NCBI GenBank assembly: GCA_031260665.1
Contig: JAISLD010000022.1
Span: 1 to 64,000 of the forward strand
Source of the DNA: Oscillospiraceae bacterium
Lineage (GTDB): Bacteria > Bacillota > Clostridia > Oscillospirales > Ruminococcaceae
Direction of reading: 5' to 3'
Length of the DNA: 64,000 nt
The notes under the pieces are model-generated. The model did not search any database. It was not told the origin of the DNA and saw only the letters and a list, made by a program, of their open reading frames with translations. Of this stretch, positions 2,501 through 38,129 are shown one piece after another. Position 1 is the stretch's first letter; each line of letters begins with the position of its first letter. The translations under genes were made by a program, and so were the position numbers.

Positions 2501-4168
2501 TTATTTATCGTCTTGAAGCGCTTCGTATCCTATCTCACCTGTACGAATCTTCACGGCATTCTCGACATTGTAGACAAAGATTTTTCCGTCGCCTATCTGC
2601 CCCGTGTGCAGCGCCGACTTCGCCGCTTTCACCACGGTTTCAACAGGCACCTTGCAGACCACAACGTCCACCTGTATCTTCGGGAGCAGCCGCGCCTTGA
2701 CCTCAACGCCACGATAAAACTCGCTGTTGCCGCTTTGCATACCAAAGCCGTTCACGTTGCTCACGGTCATTCCCGTTATGCCCACCTCGGTGAGCGCGTT
2801 CTTCAACGCCTCAAACCGCTCTGTTCGTGTGATAATGCTGATACGATTCATCTTCACGCCGTCAGCAGGCGCATACGGCGTGTCGTTCACGATTGCCGTC
2901 GTTGCGGACGAGGTTTCAGCCGCGTATGTCACGGGGATAAAGTCAGCGTACGAGCTTTCAAGTCCGTGTTCAGCCGTGTCAAGCCCCTGTATCTCGTCCT
3001 CTCTGCTTGCGCGCAGTCCGATTGTTTTCTTTATGCAGAAGAACGTGAGCGACATCGTGACAGTCACCCAGACCGCTACGGCAAGAAGCCCGAGCGCCTG
3101 AACACCAAGCAGTTTCGCTCCCCCACCGTAGAACAAGCCGCCGTCTGTAGCGAAAAGCCCCACGCAAATTGTGCCGAACAAACCGCAGAAGCAGTGAACA
3201 CCAACCGCACCCACGGGGTCGTCTATCTTCAGCACCTTGTCGACAAACTCGATACCGAGAACGACTATCACGCCCGCAACCAACCCGATAACGCACGCTG
3301 CCCACGGTTCAACGATGTCGCAGCCCGCCGTTATGCCGACAAGCCCGGCAAGCGCGCCGTTCAGCGTCATTGATATATCGGGCTTTTTGTATCTCGCCCA
3401 AGTAAAAAGCATAGCGGCTAATGTGCCTGTTGCGGCGGCAAGGTTCGTCGTGATGAATATGTCGGACGCAAGCAGCACGCTGTCGCCGTCAAACGCCGCG
3501 GTTGACGCACCGTTGAACCCGAACCAGCCAAACCACAAGAGAAACACGCCGAGTGCCCCGAGTGTGAGCGAGTGACCGGGTATCGCGTTCGGTTTGCCTT
3601 TTGTGTATTTGCCGATACGCGGTCCGATTATCGCCGCACCGATTAACGCGGACAATCCGCCGACAAAGTGAACGGCAGTTGACCCCGCGAAGTCGTGGAA
3701 CCCAAGTTCAGCGAGCCAACCGCCGCCCCATATCCAGTGACCGCTGACGGGATAGACGGCAAGCGAGATAATCGCCGAGTAAAGGCAGTACGCGCCGAAC
3801 TTTGTTCGTTCAGCCATTGCCCCCGCAACGATTGTAGCGGCTGTGGCGCAGAACACGGTTTGAAAGATGAGCCACGCAGACGGCGCGACCCCGTCGGGCG
3901 TGATGTACGCACCTGTGCCGAGTTGACCCGTAAAAAGGTCGAAAATCCCGACAAACCCGTTGTTTATGCCGAACATTATGCCAAACCCGACCAACCAGTA
4001 GGATATAGAACCTATCGCGAAGTCAAGCGAGTTCTTCATAATAATGTTGCCGGCATTCTTTGCTCTTGTAAAACCTGTTTCAAGCATACAGAACCCTGCT
4101 TGCATAACAAACACAAGCACCGCGCCGAGAAGCACCCACAAGGTGCTTGTTGAAATGATTTCTTCCAT
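2501..4168 (-). CDS. amt: Ammonium transporter (Amt) with C-terminal fused P-II (GlnB/GlnK-like) domain
   Basis: Amt signatures (MQAGFCMLETGFTRAKNAGNIIMKN, AVHFVGG, LLWFGWFGFNGAS, VHCFCGLFG), then ~116-aa P-II domain (VSNVNGFGMQSGNSEFYRGVE...TGQIGDGKIFV..VKIRTGE). Start taken at MEEIIS inside the longer ORF (ends 4249). Confidence 0.92.
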   Translation of the reverse strand: MEEIISTSTLWVLLGAVLVFVMQAGFCMLETGFTRAKNAGNIIMKNSLDFAIGSISYWLVGFGIMFGINNGFVGIFDLFTGQLGTGAYITPDGVAPSAWLIFQTVFCATAATIVAGAMAERTKFGAYCLYSAIISLAVYPVSGHWIWGGGWLAELGFHDFAGSTAVHFVGGLSALIGAAIIGPRIGKYTKGKPNAIPGHSLTLGALGVFLLWFGWFGFNGASTAAFDGDSVLLASDIFITTNLAAATGTLAAMLFTWARYKKPDISMTLNGALAGLVGITAGCDIVEPWAACVIGLVAGVIVVLGIEFVDKVLKIDDPVGAVGVHCFCGLFGTICVGLFATDGGLFYGGGAKLLGVQALGLLAVAVWVTVTMSLTFFCIKKTIGLRASREDEIQGLDTAEHGLESSYADFIPVTYAAETSSATTAIVNDTPYAPADGVKMNRISIITRTERFEALKNALTEVGITGMTVSNVNGFGMQSGNSEFYRGVEVKARLLPKIQVDVVVCKVPVETVVKAAKSALHTGQIGDGKIFVYNVENAVKIRTGEIGYEALQDDK

Positions 4169-4303
4169 TGAAATTCTCCTTTTGTTCGGTGCGTGACAGA
4201 GTTTAAGCAACCGCCGATTAACTCCACTTTTCATTCGTTGACAGAACAAACATCAGTTAATCGGTGTTCTTAATATTCTATCCACACCTTGTATATATAT
4301 GCA

Positions 4304-20604: not shown

Positions 20605-21183
20605 TTACCTGATTTCCACAACCGTGATGTTCTCCGCGCTCACGTCCACCTCGGTAAGCAAGGCGTTCTTTATCTTCGCCGCTCCCTCGGGTGTCAGCCC
20701 GTCTGTCTTGACGATTATGTTCGCTCCCCCGTTTGACAAATAGCACAGCACATCGTCAAAGCCTTGCGCCTTAAGCACCGTTTCTATCCGCGTTTCGCTT
20801 TCCATATACCCCGACAGCACCTCGGCGTTCGCCGCAAACACCGCCATCTCCTCGCCTGTCGCGTCGCCGCCGCCATACATCGTGCTTAAAAACTCCTTCG
20901 CTTCGTCCCTGCTTGCCTGCTTGTCAATACGAGCCTGTGCGAAGTACGCGTCCGCTGTTGACAGATTCGCCTCGATTTTGCCGCCCGACACCAACTTTTC
21001 TTCCCCATAGGAAGCCGCCGCTTTGCCCTTATCCTCGGTCAAGCCGCTGCTGTTTGCGTAAAGGTAGTTGATATAAACCGCGCCACCCAGCACCACCACC
21101 AACGCGCCGATTATGATTTGCTTTTTACCGAGAACAAACGAGAACCTCGGCAACCTTTTGAAGAATCGTTTCACTTTGTTCAT
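20605..21183 (-). CDS. spoIIIAH: Stage III sporulation protein AH
   Basis: One TM N-terminus; ARIDKQASRDEAKEFLSTM, AKGFDDVLCYL-type ring-building domain; last gene of spoIIIA operon. Confidence 0.88.
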   Translation of the reverse strand: MNKVKRFFKRLPRFSFVLGKKQIIIGALVVVLGGAVYINYLYANSSGLTEDKGKAAASYGEEKLVSGGKIEANLSTADAYFAQARIDKQASRDEAKEFLSTMYGGGDATGEEMAVFAANAEVLSGYMESETRIETVLKAQGFDDVLCYLSNGGANIIVKTDGLTPEGAAKIKNALLTEVDVSAENITVVEIR

Positions 21184-21207
21184 AACTTTACCCCTTTTTA
21201 GTTAAGT

Positions 21208-21609
21208 TTAATTTACTACAGACACTCTCGCGCTTGATATGCCGAGTGCCTTTGAAACCGTTTCAATCACGCGTTGACGCACCGTCACATTGCCGCCGCC
21301 GTCACATATAACCGCAACGCCGCGGACCACAGGCGGCGTTTCTCCGCCGCTAAGCGTCACCATAACACGCACGTGTCCCACGCCGCTGATAAGCGGCAGC
21401 AGTTCCTCAAGCTCCGCCTCCAACGAATCTGCGTAGGCGGAGAGTTCAGGCACGGTTTGCTTTTCGGCAAACACATCACCTATCCCGCCAAAATCACTGA
21501 CGAATATCAGCAGCATAAGCGCGCCACCGACAATCAGCATTGCCGTTATCGCCTTGTCACTCTTAACAAACTCTTTCAGGCGGTCTTTCGTCGTTTTGTT
21601 ATCCGCCAT
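21208..21609 (-). CDS. spoIIIAG: Stage III sporulation protein AG (short form)
   Basis: LEELLPLISGVGHVRVMVTLSGGE; RGVAVICDGGGNVTVRQRVIETVSKALGISSARVSV. Confidence 0.88.
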   Translation of the reverse strand: MADNKTTKDRLKEFVKSDKAITAMLIVGGALMLLIFVSDFGGIGDVFAEKQTVPELSAYADSLEAELEELLPLISGVGHVRVMVTLSGGETPPVVRGVAVICDGGGNVTVRQRVIETVSKALGISSARVSVVN

Positions 21610-22072
21610 TATTTACGTCCTCCACCACAACCTTTACTGTCGGACCAAGCTCCGCTTTCGCAATCCGAAGCAGTTCGGCAGAATCCTCGGCGCGTTCGCA
21701 AACGAGCCTCACTTCACTAACAGATATGCCGTACAGCCCCGTAATATTCACCACCACATAGATTTTCTTTACCTCAAGCCCGTTGCTTGCAAACTCGCCA
21801 CGAAGCCGCCCCGAAACCTCGGCGGCAATCGCCCGCTTTCGCTCCTCCGTGATTTCCTCGGTGAAGTCAACGTACTCGCCGCCGTTCTTCAGTGAAGCCG
21901 TCAGTTCCGCGATATCAAATTTCCCCGCTCCTATAAAATACATCACACTGACAAGGAAGAAACTCGCGGACAAAAAACTCGCTTGCTTCTTGAACGTGCC
22001 GTCAGGCACAAGCATACGAAACAAACCGCCAAGCATCGCGACTATGCATAGATTAAGCAGGGCTTCTTTCAT
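21599..22072 (-). CDS. spoIIIAF: Stage III sporulation protein AF
   Basis: Two TM segments at N-terminus; position between spoIIIAE and spoIIIAG. Confidence 0.78.
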   Translation of the reverse strand: MKEALLNLCIVAMLGGLFRMLVPDGTFKKQASFLSASFFLVSVMYFIGAGKFDIAELTASLKNGGEYVDFTEEITEERKRAIAAEVSGRLRGEFASNGLEVKKIYVVVNITGLYGISVSEVRLVCERAEDSAELLRIAKAELGPTVKVVVEDVNNGG

Positions 22073-22109
22073 TGTTTACGTCCTTTGTGGGTTTGTTTGC
22101 TATAGTGGG

Positions 22110-23225
22110 TTACTGCACAGTAGAGGAAACCGCAAGCGTAACCGCAATGCTTACGACAGCAAGCACCAAAAACGCCGACATCATAGCAAAGATGACCGAC
22201 ATCACGCTCTCTCCGCACTTGATAAGCGAAGTCAGCTTGTCGGTGCCGAACATCTCGCTTACAGCGGCGGCAAGTGTGAGTGAAAACCTCACGCAAACAG
22301 CCGAGATAAGCGGCGGCGCAATCAGCATAAGAGCGGCGATTATGCCAAACGTGCCCGTAGAAGCGCGAACCACCGACACACTGCCTTTCACCGCCGCGAG
22401 CGCGTCGCCCACAGCGCCGCCGATAAACGGCACGCCCCCCGACACGACGAACTTCGCGGCTTTCATCGCGACGGAATCGGCTGACGAAGTGACGAAGCTT
22501 TGAAGCGACAACAGCCCGACAAACACGGTGGTCATAAGCCCAAGCACCCACACCGCGATTTTCTTCACCGCTTCCGCTAATCGTTCGACCTTGAGGTCGG
22601 GGTTCACCGCACCCGCGACTGACACACCAAGCACACAGGTGGTGAGAGGAACAAGCACCGTCGTCATCACCACCGAGAATGTTTCGGCTGCCGCCACAAG
22701 CACGCCCGCAAACGCGGTCGCACCCGACAGCTGCCCCGTTATCGCCATTATCCCCGCGAACACAGGGATAAAAGTGAGAAGAAACGAGCTTCCTGCCGAC
22801 AACGCGTCAGCGGCACGTGACGCCGCTTCAGACACGCCGACCGTCATTATCCCCGCCCCCGACAACACCGCAACCATACCGAACACATCAGAAGCACGCG
22901 TGCTTCTCGCCGAATCACGAAGCGTTTCGGCAAGGGAACATATAAGAATAATCACGGTCAAAGACGTGAACATCTTGACAGGAGCGGTCCACTCATCTTT
23001 GAACGTCTTGATGATGTAATCAAACACGCTCCCTGCCGACAACGACATTGCACCGCCGCTTTCGGGGGTTATGCCCTCGTCTATCAGCTCCTCGCGCACC
23101 TCGTCGGGCAACGCCCCGGCTATCTCTTCGCCGCCGTAGTCGGCATAAGACGAGAACAAAGAGAAAACAACAAACATCAAAGCAAACATTAAACGTCCGA
23201 CTGATTTCATTCTATCACCCGACAA
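22110..23225 (-). CDS. spoIIIAE: Stage III sporulation protein AE
   Basis: Multi-TM protein; VSGGVPFIGGAVGDALAAVKGSVSVVRASTGTFGI. Confidence 0.9.
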   Translation of the reverse strand: MSGDRMKSVGRLMFALMFVVFSLFSSYADYGGEEIAGALPDEVREELIDEGITPESGGAMSLSAGSVFDYIIKTFKDEWTAPVKMFTSLTVIILICSLAETLRDSARSTRASDVFGMVAVLSGAGIMTVGVSEAASRAADALSAGSSFLLTFIPVFAGIMAITGQLSGATAFAGVLVAAAETFSVVMTTVLVPLTTCVLGVSVAGAVNPDLKVERLAEAVKKIAVWVLGLMTTVFVGLLSLQSFVTSSADSVAMKAAKFVVSGGVPFIGGAVGDALAAVKGSVSVVRASTGTFGIIAALMLIAPPLISAVCVRFSLTLAAAVSEMFGTDKLTSLIKCGESVMSVIFAMMSAFLVLAVVSIAVTLAVSSTVQ

Positions 23226-23616
23226 GCCCCGTCACAAGTTCAACCAGTTCATTAAAAAGCGGAAGCGCGATTATCACCACCGCGAATTTGCCTGCCGTTT
23301 CGATTTTCGCCGCGATTGCGTTCTCTCCCGCGTCTTTGCAGGTGTCGGCGGCAAGCTGAACGACATAGCATACAGCAAGGCTTTTCAGCAGTGCCGCCGT
23401 GTAAACAGACGATATCTCAACTTTGTCGGACAAACCGCTCATGACGTCAAGCACGGGGCGCACCGCCGATATCGCCGCAATCAAGATTATTACGCCTGCG
23501 GTCAGCGAAATGTATATGCTGAACTCAGGCTTGTACTGCCGTATGACGATGGACAGCACAGCGGCGATAAGCCCCATAGCGGCAAGCGAGAGGATATTCA
23601 TATCAATATAAACCAA
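23215..23616 (-). CDS. spoIIIAD: Stage III sporulation protein AD
   Basis: Multi-TM ~130 aa; AVCYVVQLAADTCKDAGENAIAAKIETAGKFAVV. Confidence 0.9.
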   Translation of the reverse strand: MVYIDMNILSLAAMGLIAAVLSIVIRQYKPEFSIYISLTAGVIILIAAISAVRPVLDVMSGLSDKVEISSVYTAALLKSLAVCYVVQLAADTCKDAGENAIAAKIETAGKFAVVIIALPLFNELVELVTGLVG

Positions 23617-23800
23617 ACACCGACTTTATGGTGTCAAACAAAATGGCAATCTCGTTTATCACCATAAGAAGCACCACGACAAGCCCCGCAATCGTCGTCA
23701 TCATCGCTTGCTCCTCTCGCCCCGAGTGCTTCAGCAGTTGAGTCAGCACAGCGACTATTATGCCGATAGCGGCTATCTTGAAGATTAAATCCACTTCCAC
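23603..23800 (-). CDS. spoIIIAC: Stage III sporulation protein AC
   Basis: 65 aa, two TM; VDLIFKIAAIGIIVAVLTQLLKHSGREEQAMM. Confidence 0.92.
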   Translation of the reverse strand: MEVDLIFKIAAIGIIVAVLTQLLKHSGREEQAMMTTIAGLVVVLLMVINEIAILFDTIKSVFGLY

Positions 23801-23812
23801 GCTTTGCCCCCG

Positions 23813-24298
23813 TCACAGTATCACAATCCCTATCGCCGCCCCGACATACAGCCCCATGCTTCGGTATACGCCGCCCTTTTTGTCGCTCTCCTCGGTTGCG
23901 CGCGACAAGTTTTGCGAAAGCAAAGCGATGTTTGCCTCAATCACCGCCGACTGTCCCGCGCTGTCTGACGAGCCGAGTGCCGCCCCCACCGACAGCAGTA
24001 TATCGCGGTCACTTGCCGCAAACCCACGATACTCTCGCACCGCTTTGTTCCAACCGTCACGCCAGAGTTCACGCGTCGCCACGTTCTCTTCGGCGGCGGC
24101 AAGCAGGTCGTGCCGCTTTGCTCCATCTTTGATGAAGTCGGCAATCGGCAGCTGCAAGTAAGCGATGTATGACTTCGCTTCTTCAAGAATGATTATCGCG
24201 TCCTTAAGCGACGAAGCACGGCGTGACAACGCCCTCGCTTTGACAAAGCCGACCACTGCCGACACCGCAACCACCGACACCGCCGATAATATCCGCAT
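23813..24298 (-). CDS. spoIIIAB: Stage III sporulation protein AB
   Basis: Size, N-terminal TM and C-terminal YRSMGLYVGAAIGIVIL motif. Confidence 0.85.
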   Translation of the reverse strand: MRILSAVSVVAVSAVVGFVKARALSRRASSLKDAIIILEEAKSYIAYLQLPIADFIKDGAKRHDLLAAAEENVATRELWRDGWNKAVREYRGFAASDRDILLSVGAALGSSDSAGQSAVIEANIALLSQNLSRATEESDKKGGVYRSMGLYVGAAIGIVIL

Positions 24299-24302
24299 AT
24301 CC

Positions 24303-25181
24303 TCACCTGACCTTATAGATTCCTTTTACTTTGCCGATATCAAAGCCGCAGTCAAGGCTCACAATGTGGGTTATCCCTCCCGCGTAAACGGCGCGGCGGA
24401 GCGCCTCACTCTTTGAAGCGGTTTCAATGTCAGGGCAATGCGCCGTCAGAAACAGCCCAACCCCTTGACCCGAACATCTCTCAAGCATTTCTGTATCAAA
24501 ACCAAGCTCATCGCAGGCGACAAAGTCGGGCGAGAGGGCACGAAGCGCACGAATAAAGCCCGCTTCTTTCGGAAACGAGTCAAGCACGTCGGTGTTTTGC
24601 CCCAAGTCAAAGTAAAGCGTGCCCTCGCCTTTGCCGCTTATCTCACCTCGTTCGTCAATCACCGCTATCTTCTTAAACTCAGCGGCACTGCGCACATAGT
24701 CGCGAAGCACAGTCGTTTTGCCGCTCATCGGCTTACCTATAAACAGTATCCCGCCGACTTCCGTGCCGAGTGCGCGAAACACATCGGCGGCGGAACCGCG
24801 ATATTCTTTCGCGACACGTATGTTGACAGAGGTGACGCCGCGTACTCCCTCAAGTTTGCCGTCACGAAACACCGCGGTTGCGGCAATCCCCACACGGTGA
24901 CCGCCCGACAACGTGACAAAGCACTCCGACAACTGACGCGCGTAACTATGGACGCTGTTCTCGCAAAACAGCTTGACCAAGTTGTCAAGTCGTTCAGTCG
25001 AGATAACAACGTCCGTGATTATGCGCCGACCCGGTGTTTCAAGAACGACAGGCTTGCCAGCGCGTATTCGTATCTCCGCTGTCTTGTCGCGTTCAAAGCG
25101 GGGCAGTTTGTCCGTAAACTCGCGTATCTCCGGGATATATCGCAGACAGCCGTCAAGCGGCGCGTGCTTTGCTTCAACCAT
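24303..25181 (-). CDS. spoIIIAA: Stage III sporulation protein AA (ATPase)
   Basis: FIGKPMSGKTTVLRDYVR Walker A; AVIDERGEI Walker B; EIRIRAGKPV. Confidence 0.93.
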   Translation of the reverse strand: MVEAKHAPLDGCLRYIPEIREFTDKLPRFERDKTAEIRIRAGKPVVLETPGRRIITDVVISTERLDNLVKLFCENSVHSYARQLSECFVTLSGGHRVGIAATAVFRDGKLEGVRGVTSVNIRVAKEYRGSAADVFRALGTEVGGILFIGKPMSGKTTVLRDYVRSAAEFKKIAVIDERGEISGKGEGTLYFDLGQNTDVLDSFPKEAGFIRALRALSPDFVACDELGFDTEMLERCSGQGVGLFLTAHCPDIETASKSEALRRAVYAGGITHIVSLDCGFDIGKVKGIYKVR

Positions 25182-32975: not shown

Positions 32976-34223
32976 TTACTCCATCAAAAAGCCGTTCAGT
33001 CCAAGCGACTTCGCCGCTTCAGCGAAGCTCGCAAGCTCCGCGTTGGTGAACTGCGTGTGGTTGACAGCGGCAAGGAGGGTGTACCCTGCGGCATTCTTCT
33101 TTGCCGCCTTGAAGTACGCCTCGACTCGTTCTTTCGTACCATTTGGCAAAGCAAATGTGCCACCCCCCGATATGCTCACTTCTTCAGCCGAACCGTTGTT
33201 CTGAAACTTCAGCAGTAACGCGGCGATTTCAAGCGACTTGTCACGCCGCGAGAGAATCTCGGCGGTGTCGGGCAGCGCCGGGTTTGCCGCGTCAGCCGCC
33301 GACATTTCTATATAGATATCGGCGCCGTTTGCCGCCGCTTTTATGCTCTTGCAGACTTCCGTCAACGCGGCGGCACGCTTTGCCTTGTCCGCTATTTCAG
33401 GTCGGAGAACCTTGTAGTCATACGGGATAAACTCGGGATACTGAAGCCCCGTCAGCACAACGTGCTTGAACCCTGCGGCCGTCACTTCCGCCGTGATATC
33501 GGCGAGATACGCTTTCGTTCCGTCACGGAACGGGTCGTTCCAGAGTTTGCCGCCGTTTGCCGCCGTGTCGTCCAACCAGTTGCTGTCCTCGCTTTCAAAG
33601 CGATAGCAGGTGTCGTCAACATCACGGCCCGCTCCGCTGTCTTTCAGCGTGCTGATTGCCGCCACAGCGACAAGCCCGCTCTCCTCGATTGCCGCCCGTA
33701 TCTCATCAAGCGGCATTGTGCTTTTGACAAGCTGCGTGCCTTTTGCGTACTTGCTGTTCGTCAGATACCAAAGCGAGCCGTCAGCGGACTTCAGCTCCGC
33801 CACAGCGTAGTCATAGCCGCTTTGTTTCGCCTGAAGCGCATAAGACGTGAGCGACGTGCGGTTTGACAGCACGCTTGACGGAAGCAGCAGTCCCATTCCC
33901 CCAAGCGTTTGCTTCTCCGGCTTGTCTTTAGATTCAGGGCTTGTTGTGCCGACAGAATCGCTATTATCTGCGGGTTCTTCACTCGGAACTATATCTTCAA
34001 GGTCAGGTGGCGGTGACCACACAAGCTCTTGGTCGTCCACACCTTGCTCGTCCTCGATTACAAACCTCTGAATCACCTTCGCGGCTAAAAATCCGCCCAC
34101 ACCAAGCGCACTCACTAAAATCACAGTGAGTGCTATCTCAAGAAATACCCTGCCTTTGCTCTTTCGTTTAGGGTAAAGGCTGTACTTTCTTCGTTTGACG
34201 TGAAGTCCTCGCTTTTGTTTCAT
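32976..34223 (-). CDS. Membrane-anchored putative glycoside hydrolase (DUF4015-like TIM barrel)
   Basis: Basic N-terminus + TM + Ser/Pro/acidic linker; barrel-like region with GYDYAVAELKSADGSLWY..., AVAAISTLKD, YLADITAEVTAAGFKHVVLTGLQYPEF; ATGA overlap with upstream rnfA-like gene. Confidence 0.6.
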   Translation of the reverse strand: MKQKRGLHVKRRKYSLYPKRKSKGRVFLEIALTVILVSALGVGGFLAAKVIQRFVIEDEQGVDDQELVWSPPPDLEDIVPSEEPADNSDSVGTTSPESKDKPEKQTLGGMGLLLPSSVLSNRTSLTSYALQAKQSGYDYAVAELKSADGSLWYLTNSKYAKGTQLVKSTMPLDEIRAAIEESGLVAVAAISTLKDSGAGRDVDDTCYRFESEDSNWLDDTAANGGKLWNDPFRDGTKAYLADITAEVTAAGFKHVVLTGLQYPEFIPYDYKVLRPEIADKAKRAAALTEVCKSIKAAANGADIYIEMSAADAANPALPDTAEILSRRDKSLEIAALLLKFQNNGSAEEVSISGGGTFALPNGTKERVEAYFKAAKKNAAGYTLLAAVNHTQFTNAELASFAEAAKSLGLNGFLME

Positions 34224-34804
34224 ATAGTAGTTGAATATCCTATAAACGCATAAAGTGCAAGCGACACGCACCCAATGTACAGCATACTTATCGGGAAACC
34301 GCGAAACGCTTTCGGCACAAGCTCACTGTGCAGGCGCGAGTACGCGATTCTAAGCATAAACCCCGCGAACAAGAAGCCAACGCCTGTGCCGAAGCCATAA
34401 GCTGCCGCCGCGTACCAAGTGTCGGTCAGCCGAGGCGCAAGAAACATCGCGCCTATCACCGCACAGTTGAACACCGAGAGGTGCGCGTAGGGGCGTATCC
34501 GCTTGAACAGCGACGGCGACACGCGCCATATCGTAAAAAGCGACGCCATATACAGCACCGATACTATAATTATAAACAACAGCGGCTGAAATATGCTGTA
34601 ATACTTTTCTGTCCCAAAGTGTTGCCGCAGAAAAAATGCCCCGACTGCCCCAAGCGACGAAGCGGCGGTGATAACGAGGGCGAACACAGCGGTTTTCTTC
34701 ATATCACGTGCGGAATAAATCAGCACGTTTATGCCGAGCGCACGTTCAAACACGGAGTTCTGCAGAAGTATCGCGACGAGGGAAGCGGTGATTATCTCGG
34801 TCAA
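34220..34804 (-). CDS. RnfA-like membrane subunit (divergent)
   Basis: RnfA/NqrE-like topology; LLQNSVFERALGINVLIYSARDMKKT, HLSVFNCAVIGAMFLAP, AYGFGTGVGFLFAGFML. Confidence 0.8.
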   Translation of the reverse strand: MTEIITASLVAILLQNSVFERALGINVLIYSARDMKKTAVFALVITAASSLGAVGAFFLRQHFGTEKYYSIFQPLLFIIIVSVLYMASLFTIWRVSPSLFKRIRPYAHLSVFNCAVIGAMFLAPRLTDTWYAAAAYGFGTGVGFLFAGFMLRIAYSRLHSELVPKAFRGFPISMLYIGCVSLALYAFIGYSTTI

Positions 34805-34818
34805 AGGTTTACCTCAAG

Positions 34819-35463
34819 TTACTTTTTTCTCTCAGCTGTTTCTCTCACTTTTGCAAGGCGGGCAAGCCCGGCATAACCGGCGCGAAACGTCGCTGCAAGG
34901 AATCCGATAAGCAAAAATCCGCCGAACGCGGTTTCAAGTGCCGGGACCTGAAAAGGCGGCGACAGAGGAAGCCAGCCTATGCTGAAGTTGACAAGAGCGT
35001 CACGAAGAGCGCCCAGCAGGATACAAACTGCGGCAAACCCGACGATATACCCAAGCAGAACCCGAAGCATACGAAGCGGCGGGTCGTGGACAAACCGCGT
35101 TTGCGTTTTCGACAAGATGAGCGGATTGACGACCAAGACAGGGAGGAACACCCCGACAGCGTCAGTCGCGGACGCGCCGAGCAGCTTGTTTGTGAGCAGG
35201 AGAGCAGGCGCGTAAAGCAGAGCGGCGACAATCGCGTAGATAGGCACACGAACCGCATACGACAGCCTTGTCGATATAAAACGGCAGAGAATGACAGACG
35301 GCGCGGTTATCAGCGCAAACATCAGCGAGATGACTAAAGCGTTGCTGAAGTCGGTCGCTCCTGCCGCAACAGGACCGACAAGCCAGCCACTCGACAGCAC
35401 CAAGTTCTTTCGGACATAGCCCTCGCTTGTTTTCAGCGAAAGCTGATAGTTGTTGTTATCCAT
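34819..35463 (-). CDS. RnfE-like membrane subunit (divergent)
   Basis: RnfE/NqrD-like topology; RKNLVLSSGWLVGPVAAGATDFSNALVISL, LPVLVVNPLILSKTQTRF, LLGYIVGFAAVCILLGALRDAL. Confidence 0.75.
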   Translation of the reverse strand: MDNNNYQLSLKTSEGYVRKNLVLSSGWLVGPVAAGATDFSNALVISLMFALITAPSVILCRFISTRLSYAVRVPIYAIVAALLYAPALLLTNKLLGASATDAVGVFLPVLVVNPLILSKTQTRFVHDPPLRMLRVLLGYIVGFAAVCILLGALRDALVNFSIGWLPLSPPFQVPALETAFGGFLLIGFLAATFRAGYAGLARLAKVRETAERKK

Positions 35464-36855
35464 TTACTTTAACTCGTCAAACTCATCAATCTGTATGCTG
35501 TGGTCAACCAAATGCGTCGCCGCTTCTTCGGGGAGAAGCAGAGTCGGTACAGGTGGGGTTTCACTTGTGGGAAGCATTTCAGTCGGCAGTTCCGCTTGAG
35601 GGATAACAGGCGGCTTCCGCTTTAGTTTCTTGACAAACGTCACGGCTTCGCCGACAGTCGTCTTAAACGGGGAACGCAGTGCTTCGGGTATCGGTATCTC
35701 TGTGTGAAGCAGTTTGTTGTCGGCAAACTTCTTGCTGACCGCTCTCATCTTCAGCTTAAACGAGAATCTTCGCTTAAACTTCGTCACCTTACCGTTTTGC
35801 GGCGGCATAACGAACGCCGCTATCTCCTCGCTGTCAAGTTCGGTCGTCTTGTCGAGTTCGGCGGCGGCGCCACCTGAACGAAGCTTCTCGCGTGTTCTCT
35901 CATAGGCGTGTATTCTCGCGGAGAGTCGGGCAAAGAGAGGCGGCACGGTGTGATGAACCCGTTCGGCAAAGCTGTCGCAACCAAGGGCAAGGACGTTTGA
36001 AATCAGCAAAGCAAACAAGTATGGTCCCTCGGTTTTGCCAAAACCGTGGAACAAGATGATTATAAACCCAAAAACCACACCATAATATACTCTGCCTGCT
36101 TTTGTTTTCGGCAATGTCTGCGGGTCAGACGAGAGAAACACAGTGCCAAAGAGGAGATACCCGTTGGTGAGCGACGCTTTGATGATGTCGGTCGGCTGAT
36201 AGAGTTCATTCGGCGGAAAGAGCAGCGAGTAGGCAAGGTATATCGCGGCAGGAAGCACCGATGCCGAAACCTTCAACGCGCCACTCGCGGCAAGGCAGAC
36301 ACCACAGACAATCAGCACCAACACCTGCACGTTGCCGGGCGCACCAACAAAGCCGCCTGTCAGCAGTTCGGTGGGCGACAAATTCTGCACCGCTTCGAGT
36401 CGCCGCGCGAGGGTTTCGGCACCACTCGACAAGGCACCTTGGTATTCGCCCCACACAGGGACTTTTTCCCACGGCGGGGGGTATAGGAGAGTGTCACTCG
36501 GGTAGCATATAATTAAGAAAGTGACGGCAAGAGCGGCGGGACAAAAGATATAGTTTTCTTTGCCGCCGAACGCGTGCTTCAGCGATATGGCAAGCACCAC
36601 ACCAAAGATAATGATGAAGAAACTCGTGGTCGCGGGGAGCATAAGAGCGATACAAAGGGCGGTCAGCACGTTGGTGAGGTCTTTCGCCGAATGTTCTTTC
36701 CCCGACAACACGCACCCAAGGAAGTCCGTCACCACCGCCGCAACCAACGCAATCACCGCTGAAACAACAATACGCCACCCATGAGCGAACACGGCGGTAA
36801 CTATAACGGACAGCAGGCAGAGAAGCTGTAGATTGTATACGGATTTTTTCTTCAT
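35464..36855 (-). CDS. RnfD-like membrane subunit with long C-terminal cytoplasmic extension (divergent)
   Basis: NqrB/RnfD-like: SAKDLTNVLTALCIALMLPATTSFF, HAFGGKENYIFCPAALAVTFL; expected SGAT motif reads SGAE. Confidence 0.8.
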   Translation of the reverse strand: MKKKSVYNLQLLCLLSVIVTAVFAHGWRIVVSAVIALVAAVVTDFLGCVLSGKEHSAKDLTNVLTALCIALMLPATTSFFIIIFGVVLAISLKHAFGGKENYIFCPAALAVTFLIICYPSDTLLYPPPWEKVPVWGEYQGALSSGAETLARRLEAVQNLSPTELLTGGFVGAPGNVQVLVLIVCGVCLAASGALKVSASVLPAAIYLAYSLLFPPNELYQPTDIIKASLTNGYLLFGTVFLSSDPQTLPKTKAGRVYYGVVFGFIIILFHGFGKTEGPYLFALLISNVLALGCDSFAERVHHTVPPLFARLSARIHAYERTREKLRSGGAAAELDKTTELDSEEIAAFVMPPQNGKVTKFKRRFSFKLKMRAVSKKFADNKLLHTEIPIPEALRSPFKTTVGEAVTFVKKLKRKPPVIPQAELPTEMLPTSETPPVPTLLLPEEAATHLVDHSIQIDEFDELK

Positions 36856-36918: not shown

Positions 36919-37485
36919 ATGAAAATCGACGTAATCTCACCGGGTACACTGAAACTTACATTGTCGCGACCCGATATGGACGACCTTGATATCAAGTATG
37001 AACATCTTTCGGGGAAAACACCCGCCGCAAAGCGGCTGCTTGCGCACGTTCTCGGTCGGGTAAAGACAGAGGGGGGCGGTAAGATTGATTTATCGGGAGA
37101 CAGGCTGTTTGTTGAGGCGTTTCCGAGGACTGACGGAGGTTGTATGCTTTACATCTCAAGCCTTGAAAGTTCTCAAGACGCGGATAACGGCTGGCTTGCC
37201 CCGTCTGATTACTCGGCGATGTCGGCGTTTCGCACCGAGGTGTTTCAGCTTCCGAGCGGTATGTCGAAGTGCGCTTCTGTCGTTGAGTTTGACGATGTTG
37301 ACGCGTTCCTTGAGTTCTACAATGCGTGTCGCGGCACTTCCTCACCCGAAACCTACAGTTATTATGGCAAGATTCGTGCGATAATAGTCGGCAAGGCGGC
37401 AAGGCTTGCGAGGGAATACGGCAAAGTGTTCACTTCCACAAGCGAGCTGAACAAAACGATGGAACACGGCAGACGTTTAGGTTAG
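36919..37485 (+). CDS. mecA: MecA-like adaptor protein
   Basis: N-terminal MKIDVISPGTLKLTLSRPDMDDLDI and C-terminal adaptor-like domain (EYGKVFTSTSELNKTMEHG). Confidence 0.65.
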   Translation: MKIDVISPGTLKLTLSRPDMDDLDIKYEHLSGKTPAAKRLLAHVLGRVKTEGGGKIDLSGDRLFVEAFPRTDGGCMLYISSLESSQDADNGWLAPSDYSAMSAFRTEVFQLPSGMSKCASVVEFDDVDAFLEFYNACRGTSSPETYSYYGKIRAIIVGKAARLAREYGKVFTSTSELNKTMEHGRRLG

Positions 37486-38129
37486 GCGTTTTGCAGCCCC
37501 GTCATAACCCCGTTCAAGTCGCCCGACTTGAACAGGCAGCTCCCCGCGACAAGCCAGTCAGCGCCTGCGGCTATCGCCGAAGCGGCGTTTGTCGGGTTCA
37601 CACCGCCGTCAATGCTGACGACCAAGTTCTCTTTGCCGCGCAAGTGCGCGGCGTTTTTTATTGCGGAAACCTTGGCAAGCATATCAGGCATAAACGCCTG
37701 CCCTCCCTTGCCGGGTTCGACCGTCATAATAAGCGCCAGCCCGACTTCATCTAAAAACTGCAGGATAGCGTCAAATGGTGTGTTCGGCTTGACCGACAGG
37801 CCTGCGGTCAAGCCAAGGCGGTTTATCTCACGAATAGCGGCGAGCGGCTCATCTGATTCAGCGTGAACCGTGATGTAGTCGGCACCCGCGTCAGCAAAAC
37901 CTTGAATGAAGTTCAGCGGCTTCTGCACCATAAGATGTACGTCAAGCGGCAAGTCGGTCACACGGTTTGCGGCGGCACATATGCGGTCGCCGAACGTCAT
38001 CGCCGGGACAAACACACCGTCCATTATGTCGAGGTGGATAACAAACGCACCTGCTTGCTCCACGCGTCGCAGTTCCTCACCAAGGCGCGTAAAGTCGCAG
38101 TCAAGCATAGAGGGGGCAATTTTGTTCAT
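37482..38129 (-). CDS. rpe: Ribulose-phosphate 3-epimerase
   Basis: KIAPSMLDCDFTRLGEEL, HLDIMDGVFVPAMTFG, MTVEPGKGGQAF, SIDGGVNP. Confidence 0.96.
   Translation of the reverse strand: MNKIAPSMLDCDFTRLGEELRRVEQAGAFVIHLDIMDGVFVPAMTFGDRICAAANRVTDLPLDVHLMVQKPLNFIQGFADAGADYITVHAESDEPLAAIREINRLGLTAGLSVKPNTPFDAILQFLDEVGLALIMTVEPGKGGQAFMPDMLAKVSAIKNAAHLRGKENLVVSIDGGVNPTNAASAIAAGADWLVAGSCLFKSGDLNGVMTGLQNA

Follow-up and report, generated by a model that had tools for sequence, protein, structure and literature searches.

A conserved paralogue of the Rnf membrane core with near-total loss of its flavin and iron–sulfur ligands

What can the membrane core of a redox-driven ion pump do once nearly all of its cofactor ligands are gone? 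This question is raised by three consecutive minus-strand genes in a 64,000-nucleotide stretch of DNA (the window) from an Oscillospiraceae bacterium (GenBank assembly GCA_031260665.1, contig JAISLD010000022.1, positions 1 to 64,000). An initial annotation read these genes as RnfD, RnfE, and RnfA homologues in the order D-E-A, with rnfC, rnfG, and rnfB missing, and proposed an intact membrane core unable to carry the normal electron path. We find that the set, whose products we name D2 (RnfD-like), E2 (RnfE-like), and A2 (RnfA-like), represents a conserved clade of paralogues, of long standing within one bacterial order (probably the GTDB order Oscillospirales), and not the decay of one genome. 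Its ligands for flavin mononucleotide (FMN) and for the [2Fe-2S] cluster are almost entirely lost.

All three open reading frames are intact, and their Pfam scores are well over cut-off (Table 1). The best NCBIfam models are rnfD, rnfE, and rnfA, with scores far below their cut-offs, and these hidden Markov model searches together bear out the assignment. A family profile of E2 aligns to the RnfE structure 7zc6_E (E = 3.4e-33), and that of A2 aligns to the RnfA structure 9eri_A (E = 2.7e-37). The AlphaFold model of D2 has a mean predicted local distance difference test score (pLDDT) of 79, with a low-confidence C-terminal tail past approximately residue 330. Its best matches are the RnfD structures 8ahx_D, 9eri_D, and 7zc6_D, at template modeling (TM) scores by target of ~0.7–0.8.

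We compared residue columns in ~137 paralogous cassettes (136 for RnfE) with those of 31–33 canonical sequences, using numbering from the C. tetanomorphum and A. woodii structures. The RnfD motif had been read as SSGAETLA instead of the flavinylation motif SGAT, and this is correct: the D2 residues are S144-G-A-E147. In a MAFFT alignment, D2 Gly145 falls in the column of the FMN-bearing Thr153 of C. tetanomorphum RnfD, which is Thr in 31/31 canonical proteins versus 6/137 paralogues. A [ST]GA[ST] motif is present in a single paralogue linker out of 137, compared to 13 of 31 canonical linkers. FMN-pocket residues Arg130, Glu185, and Ser284 of RnfD and the nearby Asn90 (PMC9588780) are replaced in the paralogues, mostly by apolar or small residues (Asn90 by Leu or Met and Arg130 by Phe, Val, or Tyr in D2-type proteins). 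Most paralogues (94/137) have Ser at the FMN site. We disfavor this residue as an alternative flavinylation site, as the motif is gone, the pocket is replaced, and several cassette genomes lack ApbE.

The losses in E2 and A2 are equally consistent. Alignment confirms the earlier observation that Gly30 and Pro114 of E2 and Asn26 of A2 occupy Fe–S cysteine positions and that Cys114 of A2 is kept, so that three of the four ligands are lost. Realignment returned no Thr or Cys to the canonical positions, and the lost Cys columns read 0 of 136–137 across the paralogues. The RnfA Thr111 column is Phe in 119/137 paralogues, and Arg154 of RnfA, placed near RnfB in work on A. woodii (PMC11889175), falls from 33/33 canonical sequences to 17/137. 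Across ~137 cassettes, the data support the proposal of an intact Rnf-like core unable to carry electrons along the normal path. Two loci from order members of other families (L147 and L149) retain the first RnfE Cys, within VGLCP and VGVCP, and are possible intermediates. A different partial loss is seen outside the cassette, in an RnfE-like protein (L256, G166:C9) with LGLCP but without the second NC motif.

The window holds no rnfB, rnfC, or rnfG beside the D-E-A block, as the initial annotation had stated, and the only related gene that relatives add is an RnfC-like protein lacking most of its N-terminal domain. Neither NqrF nor NqrA occurs among the identified cassette neighbors in the window and its relatives. 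A search of the window genome (1.46 Mb in 48 contigs, ~95.6% complete) located the missing components elsewhere. The end of contig C11 carries canonical rnfC, rnfD with its VTGAT motif intact, and, by eye, the start of rnfG. A canonical rnfB stands alone beside nrdR on contig C41 (G000:C41:115254-116048; L279:3255-4049, minus strand), unlike in two genomes of the same genus, where rnfB follows rnfA. The apbE gene lies on contig C23, away from the block. These canonical parts make D-E-A a second, divergent set. Canonical rnfE and rnfA were not found in the window assembly, likely owing to an assembly gap, as C11 breaks off within rnfG and these genes stand beside rnfC-D in both of the same-genus relatives examined, in addition to the paralogous pair. 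Complementation of the genome's own canonical Rnf by D-E-A is unlikely because the replaced ligands are those that would be needed and the same-genus relatives carry both sets.

We surveyed related genomes for the block. In a family sample of 149 genomes, 139 encode an RnfD-type protein, and most of these 139 have two copies, one canonical and one divergent. The divergent type was found in ~114 of the 149 by a search with the window protein (hand count). Gene order was scored in the first 60 loci taken in full and in 80 named loci from the GTDB collection. The 60 loci mostly read rpe, mecA (divergently oriented, where present), D, E, A, and a glycosidase-like gene, and the same order recurs in the named loci, whose hosts include Massilioclostridium coli, Massiliimalia timonensis, Massiliimalia massiliensis, Clostridium methylpentosum DSM 5476, and Merdimmobilis hominis. 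Together with PMC10579323, these host names suggest that the sampled family is GTDB Acutalibacteraceae, within the order Oscillospirales. The rpe homologue cluster is the commonest upstream neighbor (48/60 loci and most named loci). The same cassette occurs at ten loci outside the family but within the order, mostly adjoining rpe or a MecA-like gene; in one of these (L147:5418-6191), a lipoprotein-like gene resembling a CAP-domain protein lies between D2 and E2. The block recurs across the family and elsewhere in the order. A class-wide search suggests that the cassette does not extend beyond the order: among its 30 best matches, the non-order sequences carry the canonical cysteines. In an unrooted tree of 112 RnfD sequences, a single branch separates divergent from canonical proteins with support of 100/99.

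The D-E-A genes are under purifying selection. Pairwise ratios of nonsynonymous to synonymous substitution rates (dN/dS) are 0.06–0.15 for D, E, and A, a rough estimate given the high dS (~1–2), and the reading frames are open in nearly all of the ~114 cassette genomes. It is hardly credible that the set is a decaying, functionless remnant of a duplicated rnf operon. Its missing subunits and ligands are what such a remnant would show, but the selection signal and the open frames contradict it, as do the fixed gene order and the retention of D2 and E2 in genomes of 0.7–0.9 Mb.

What has been maintained alongside these losses points to the ion path. In A. woodii, Na+ translocation is assigned to the RnfA/E pair and to R67-E115, with Arg67 of RnfE needed for activity and Glu115 (RnfE) and Asn112 (RnfA) near the ion (PMC11889175). 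The corresponding RnfA columns are nearly invariant in the paralogues (N15 136/137, N112 131/137), and those of RnfE are largely kept (N16 129/136, R68 122/136, N108 114/136, E116 106/136, R149 136/136). The window cassette retains the gate Arg and Asn. Loss of the electron carriers together with retention of the ion-path residues makes redox-independent translocation or switching through E2 and A2 the best explanation. We favor it tentatively, as a possibility of a little under even weight: D-E-A may be a redox-free derivative of the Rnf core, moving ions or changing conformation in the absence of electron transfer.

In such a complex, whose function we infer while its losses are observed directly, E2 and A2 would still form an inverted pair whose opening alternates between the two membrane faces. 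An ion gradient or partner binding would drive the switch, in place of an electron residing at the [2Fe-2S] cluster. D2 would act as a structural partner, with apolar side chains closing off its FMN cavity. Independently of redox chemistry, the whole would then translocate Na+ (or H+) or act as a conformational switch, and it may be linked to the glycosidase-like membrane protein of the adjacent gene.

An alternative is that the flavin-free D2 itself passes a small solute or ion. The RnfD fold is related to the urea/ammonium channel class (PMC9588780), the D2 model shows weak fold likeness to the urea transporter UT-A and to Rh/Amt proteins, and polar FMN-site residues are replaced. Against a D2 channel, the FMN cavity appears filled by apolar residues, A. 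woodii RnfD is dry with no ion path (PMC11889175), and this explanation gives no reason for retaining E2 and A2. We consider it quite unlikely.

The gene downstream of A2 bears on a further explanation. The D2 stop directly adjoins the E2 start, the gap between E2 and A2 is 14 bases, and the ATG of the downstream gene overlaps the A2 stop as ATGA. With this spacing, D2-E2-A2 and the downstream gene, which encodes a DUF4015-like membrane protein, look like one four-gene operon. In 44 of the first 60 loci and in most named loci, the gene after A2 is of the DUF4015-like type. The Pfam match of the window protein is given in Table 1, and a relative (L112) scores 132 bits against PF13200. The AlphaFold model (pLDDT 83) shows a membrane helix and a triose-phosphate isomerase (TIM) barrel, and Foldseek places it nearest to C. 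difficile Cwp19, followed by the PgaB C-terminal domain and GH20. An Asp at residue 211 of the window protein is invariant among the aligned sequences, and the other candidate catalytic acids vary; any catalytic role for these residues is putative.

The main rival to ion translocation or switching is a scaffold, in which an inert D2-E2-A2 would position the glycosidase-like wall protein or other envelope proteins and transport nothing. This would fit a fold that is retained while its redox features are lost, the frequent downstream DUF4015-like gene with its start/stop overlap in the window, and the long C-terminal tails of paralogue D2 proteins, which extend a median of 41 amino acids past the core versus 12 in canonical proteins. 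A scaffold would not, however, require conserved buried Asn, Arg, and Glu residues along the ion path. Its proposed cargo is also separable: by hand count, 17 genomes have D2 without the glycosidase-like gene and 20 have the converse. The gene occurs in 97/114 genomes with D2 and in 20/35 without it (odds ratio 4.3, p = 0.0009; hand count, ignoring relatedness). We regard the scaffold as unlikely.

Some lineages carry an additional gene that could suggest remaining redox chemistry. An RnfC-like Fe–S protein is encoded upstream of D2 in 19/60 loci (L064–L123), and all eight [4Fe-4S] cysteines are invariant in the 14 sequences aligned. The riboflavin-site positions N124 and D248 (Asp or Glu at the latter) are kept in 22/22 members of these lineages. 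A residual redox device, with non-covalent riboflavin in D2 and the RnfC-like protein moving electrons at the cytoplasmic face, could explain both features. However, the window and most cassettes lack the gene, and in these N124 is kept in only 64/115 (Cys in the window). The RnfC-like proteins are themselves truncated: the Gly-rich nucleotide/FMN motif is missing, as is most of the N-terminal domain. There is also no Fe–S ligand set in E2/A2 and no RnfG. Such a device appears improbable. Cassettes without the RnfC-like gene retain the ion gate most strictly (R68 in 111/~115, E116 in 103/~115). As the RnfC-like lineages are akin to each other, the gate and riboflavin contrasts contain few independent data points.

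A role alongside the ordinary Rnf complex of the same cell, through assembly with it or its regulation, would be consistent with the canonical RnfD in most cassette genomes of the family and with the canonical rnfC, rnfD, rnfB, and apbE of the window genome. The cassette or parts of it nonetheless persist in ten genomes in which no canonical RnfA/E was found (G103, G076, G079, G121, G043, G001, G122, G134, and the reduced G068 and G088), and we judge such a helper role very improbable. Searches of G103, G076, G121, G122, G068, and G088 also returned no RnfG-type FMN_bind protein and no ApbE; G079, G043, G001, and G134 do have ApbE. Among the six, G103 is 94% complete with D, E, and A found, G068 and G088 are 97% complete with D and E found, and G076, G121, and G122 are 72–83% complete. 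In the near-complete cassette genomes without the flavoprotein and ApbE, covalent FMN looks impossible. In the reduced genomes, E2 lies near genes for elongation factor P (EF-P) and shikimate dehydrogenase.

Several observations weigh against redox-independent translocation or switching. The fourth Fe–S ligand, RnfA Cys113, remains in 95/137 paralogues, and the R68/E116 gate is often lost in cassettes with the RnfC-like gene. In the window, E2 has Gln at E116 and D2 has Cys at RnfD N124, which places this copy among the more divergent. The conserved Arg and Asn may serve the fold only. The two smallest genomes, the reduced G068 (L245) and G088 (L246) (0.7 and 0.9 Mb; also L100 and L101), have D2 and E2 apart with no A found, and many genomes without canonical Rnf are only 72–89% complete. 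The glycosidase-like gene shows only a loose association with the cassette. Finally, transport by D2-E2-A2, its expression, and its formation of one complex are putative. With these points in mind, we put forward, as a possibility to be held with more reserve, that on a single occasion in the distant past a redox pump of the Rnf/Nqr superfamily became an ion translocator (or gradient-driven motor) that works without electrons and serves the envelope. It would have been maintained across the order, whose members are mostly gut Clostridia, and partly even in reduced genomes with no canonical Rnf found.

Table 1. Genes and diagnostic residues of the D-E-A locus, in window coordinates
Feature	Coordinates	Strand	Evidence
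D2, RnfD/NqrB-like membrane protein, 463 amino acids	35464..36855	-	PF03116, 153 bits, 1.3e-44
E2, RnfE/NqrD-like membrane protein, 214 amino acids	34819..35463	-	PF02508, 58 bits, 2e-15
A2, RnfA/NqrE-like membrane protein, 194 amino acids, TTG start	34220..34804	-	PF02508, 65 bits, 1.4e-17
DUF4015-like protein, N-terminal membrane helix and TIM barrel, presumably extramembrane	32976..34223	-	PF13200, 3e-8
MecA-like gene, divergent from D2	36919..37485	+	PF05389, 1.2e-8; same place in 26/60 loci
rpe-like (ribulose-phosphate 3-epimerase-like) gene, syntenic marker	37482..38129	-	identified by eye
D2 residues 144-147, SGAE; flavinylated (S/T)GAT in canonical RnfD	36415..36426	-	alignment
E2 Gly30, position of RnfE Cys26	35374..35376	-	Cys in 0/136 paralogues vs 33/33 canonical
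E2 Pro114, position of RnfE Cys109; preceding Asn113 kept	35122..35124	-	Cys in 0/136 paralogues vs 31/33 canonical
A2 Asn26, position of RnfA Cys25	34727..34729	-	Cys in 0/137 paralogues vs 31/33 canonical
A2 Cys114, position of RnfA Cys113, sole Fe-S ligand retained	34463..34465	-	Cys in 95/137 paralogues
E2 Arg72, counterpart of Na+-gate residue Arg67 of A. woodii RnfE	35248..35250	-	Arg in 122/136 paralogues vs 33/33 canonical

The MecA-like gene is probably a conserved neighbor and not part of the function of the cassette. A link to sporulation was rejected: some near-complete cassette genomes (G017, G041, and the reduced G068 and G088) lack SpoIVA, and many genomes without the cassette have it. 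By eye, the window contains a spoIIIA-type sporulation operon (20605-25181, minus strand), and the window genome also has SpoIVA. Elsewhere in the window (2501-4249, minus strand), an ammonium transporter and a P-II regulator domain are fused in one protein (PF00909 and PF00543).

Structural studies (PMC11889175, PMC9588780) disagree on whether the ion in Rnf and Nqr passes through RnfA/E or through RnfD/NqrB and on the extent to which transport needs the electron. A natural RnfA/E/D set without electron carriers could serve directly as a test system: ion movement by it would mean that transport and redox chemistry are separable. The cassette also matters for annotation. The NCBIfam rnfD cut-off is exceeded by at least one paralogue protein (L112), and Clostridia may thus be annotated as having a partial Rnf that is unusable for energy. 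The literature we searched contained no description of a cofactor-free Rnf. One study found a strain with only four Rnf genes (PMC7764203), which may be an unnoticed case of the cassette.

Compared with known systems, the downstream protein appears to share its fold with the DUF4015/GHL10 glycosidase-like TIM barrels (Cwp19, PgaB, GH20), at TM-scores of ~0.5 and 12% identity, and its glycosidase activity is putative. The Na+-translocating NADH:quinone oxidoreductase (Na+-NQR), through NqrB, NqrD, and NqrE, belongs to the same superfamily as the cassette and arose by Rnf duplication with changed subunits (PMC12174285). In Na+-NQR, the sites for FMN and [2Fe-2S] persist and NqrF was added, whereas the cassette lost these sites and acquired no electron-input gene. 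The NQR/RNF-like partial systems of Meheust et al. (2021; PMC8238504) are likewise partial complexes built on the NqrB/RnfD membrane domain, which is fused there to the NqrF NAD-binding domain in flavinylation clusters. D2, in contrast, consists of PF03116 only, with no PF00175 fusion and no flavinylation site, and apbE is elsewhere in the genome. The closest relative is the Rnf complex itself, the Na+/H+-translocating ferredoxin:NAD+ oxidoreductase (7zc6, 8ahx, 9eri). From it, the cassette differs in lacking the FMN-bearing Thr, three of the four [2Fe-2S] cysteines, rnfG, rnfB, and, in the window, rnfC, and in its additional glycosidase-like gene. The two have in common homologous subunits in the relative order D-(G)-E-A, the predicted fold of D2, and, for the most part, the gate residues of RnfA/E.

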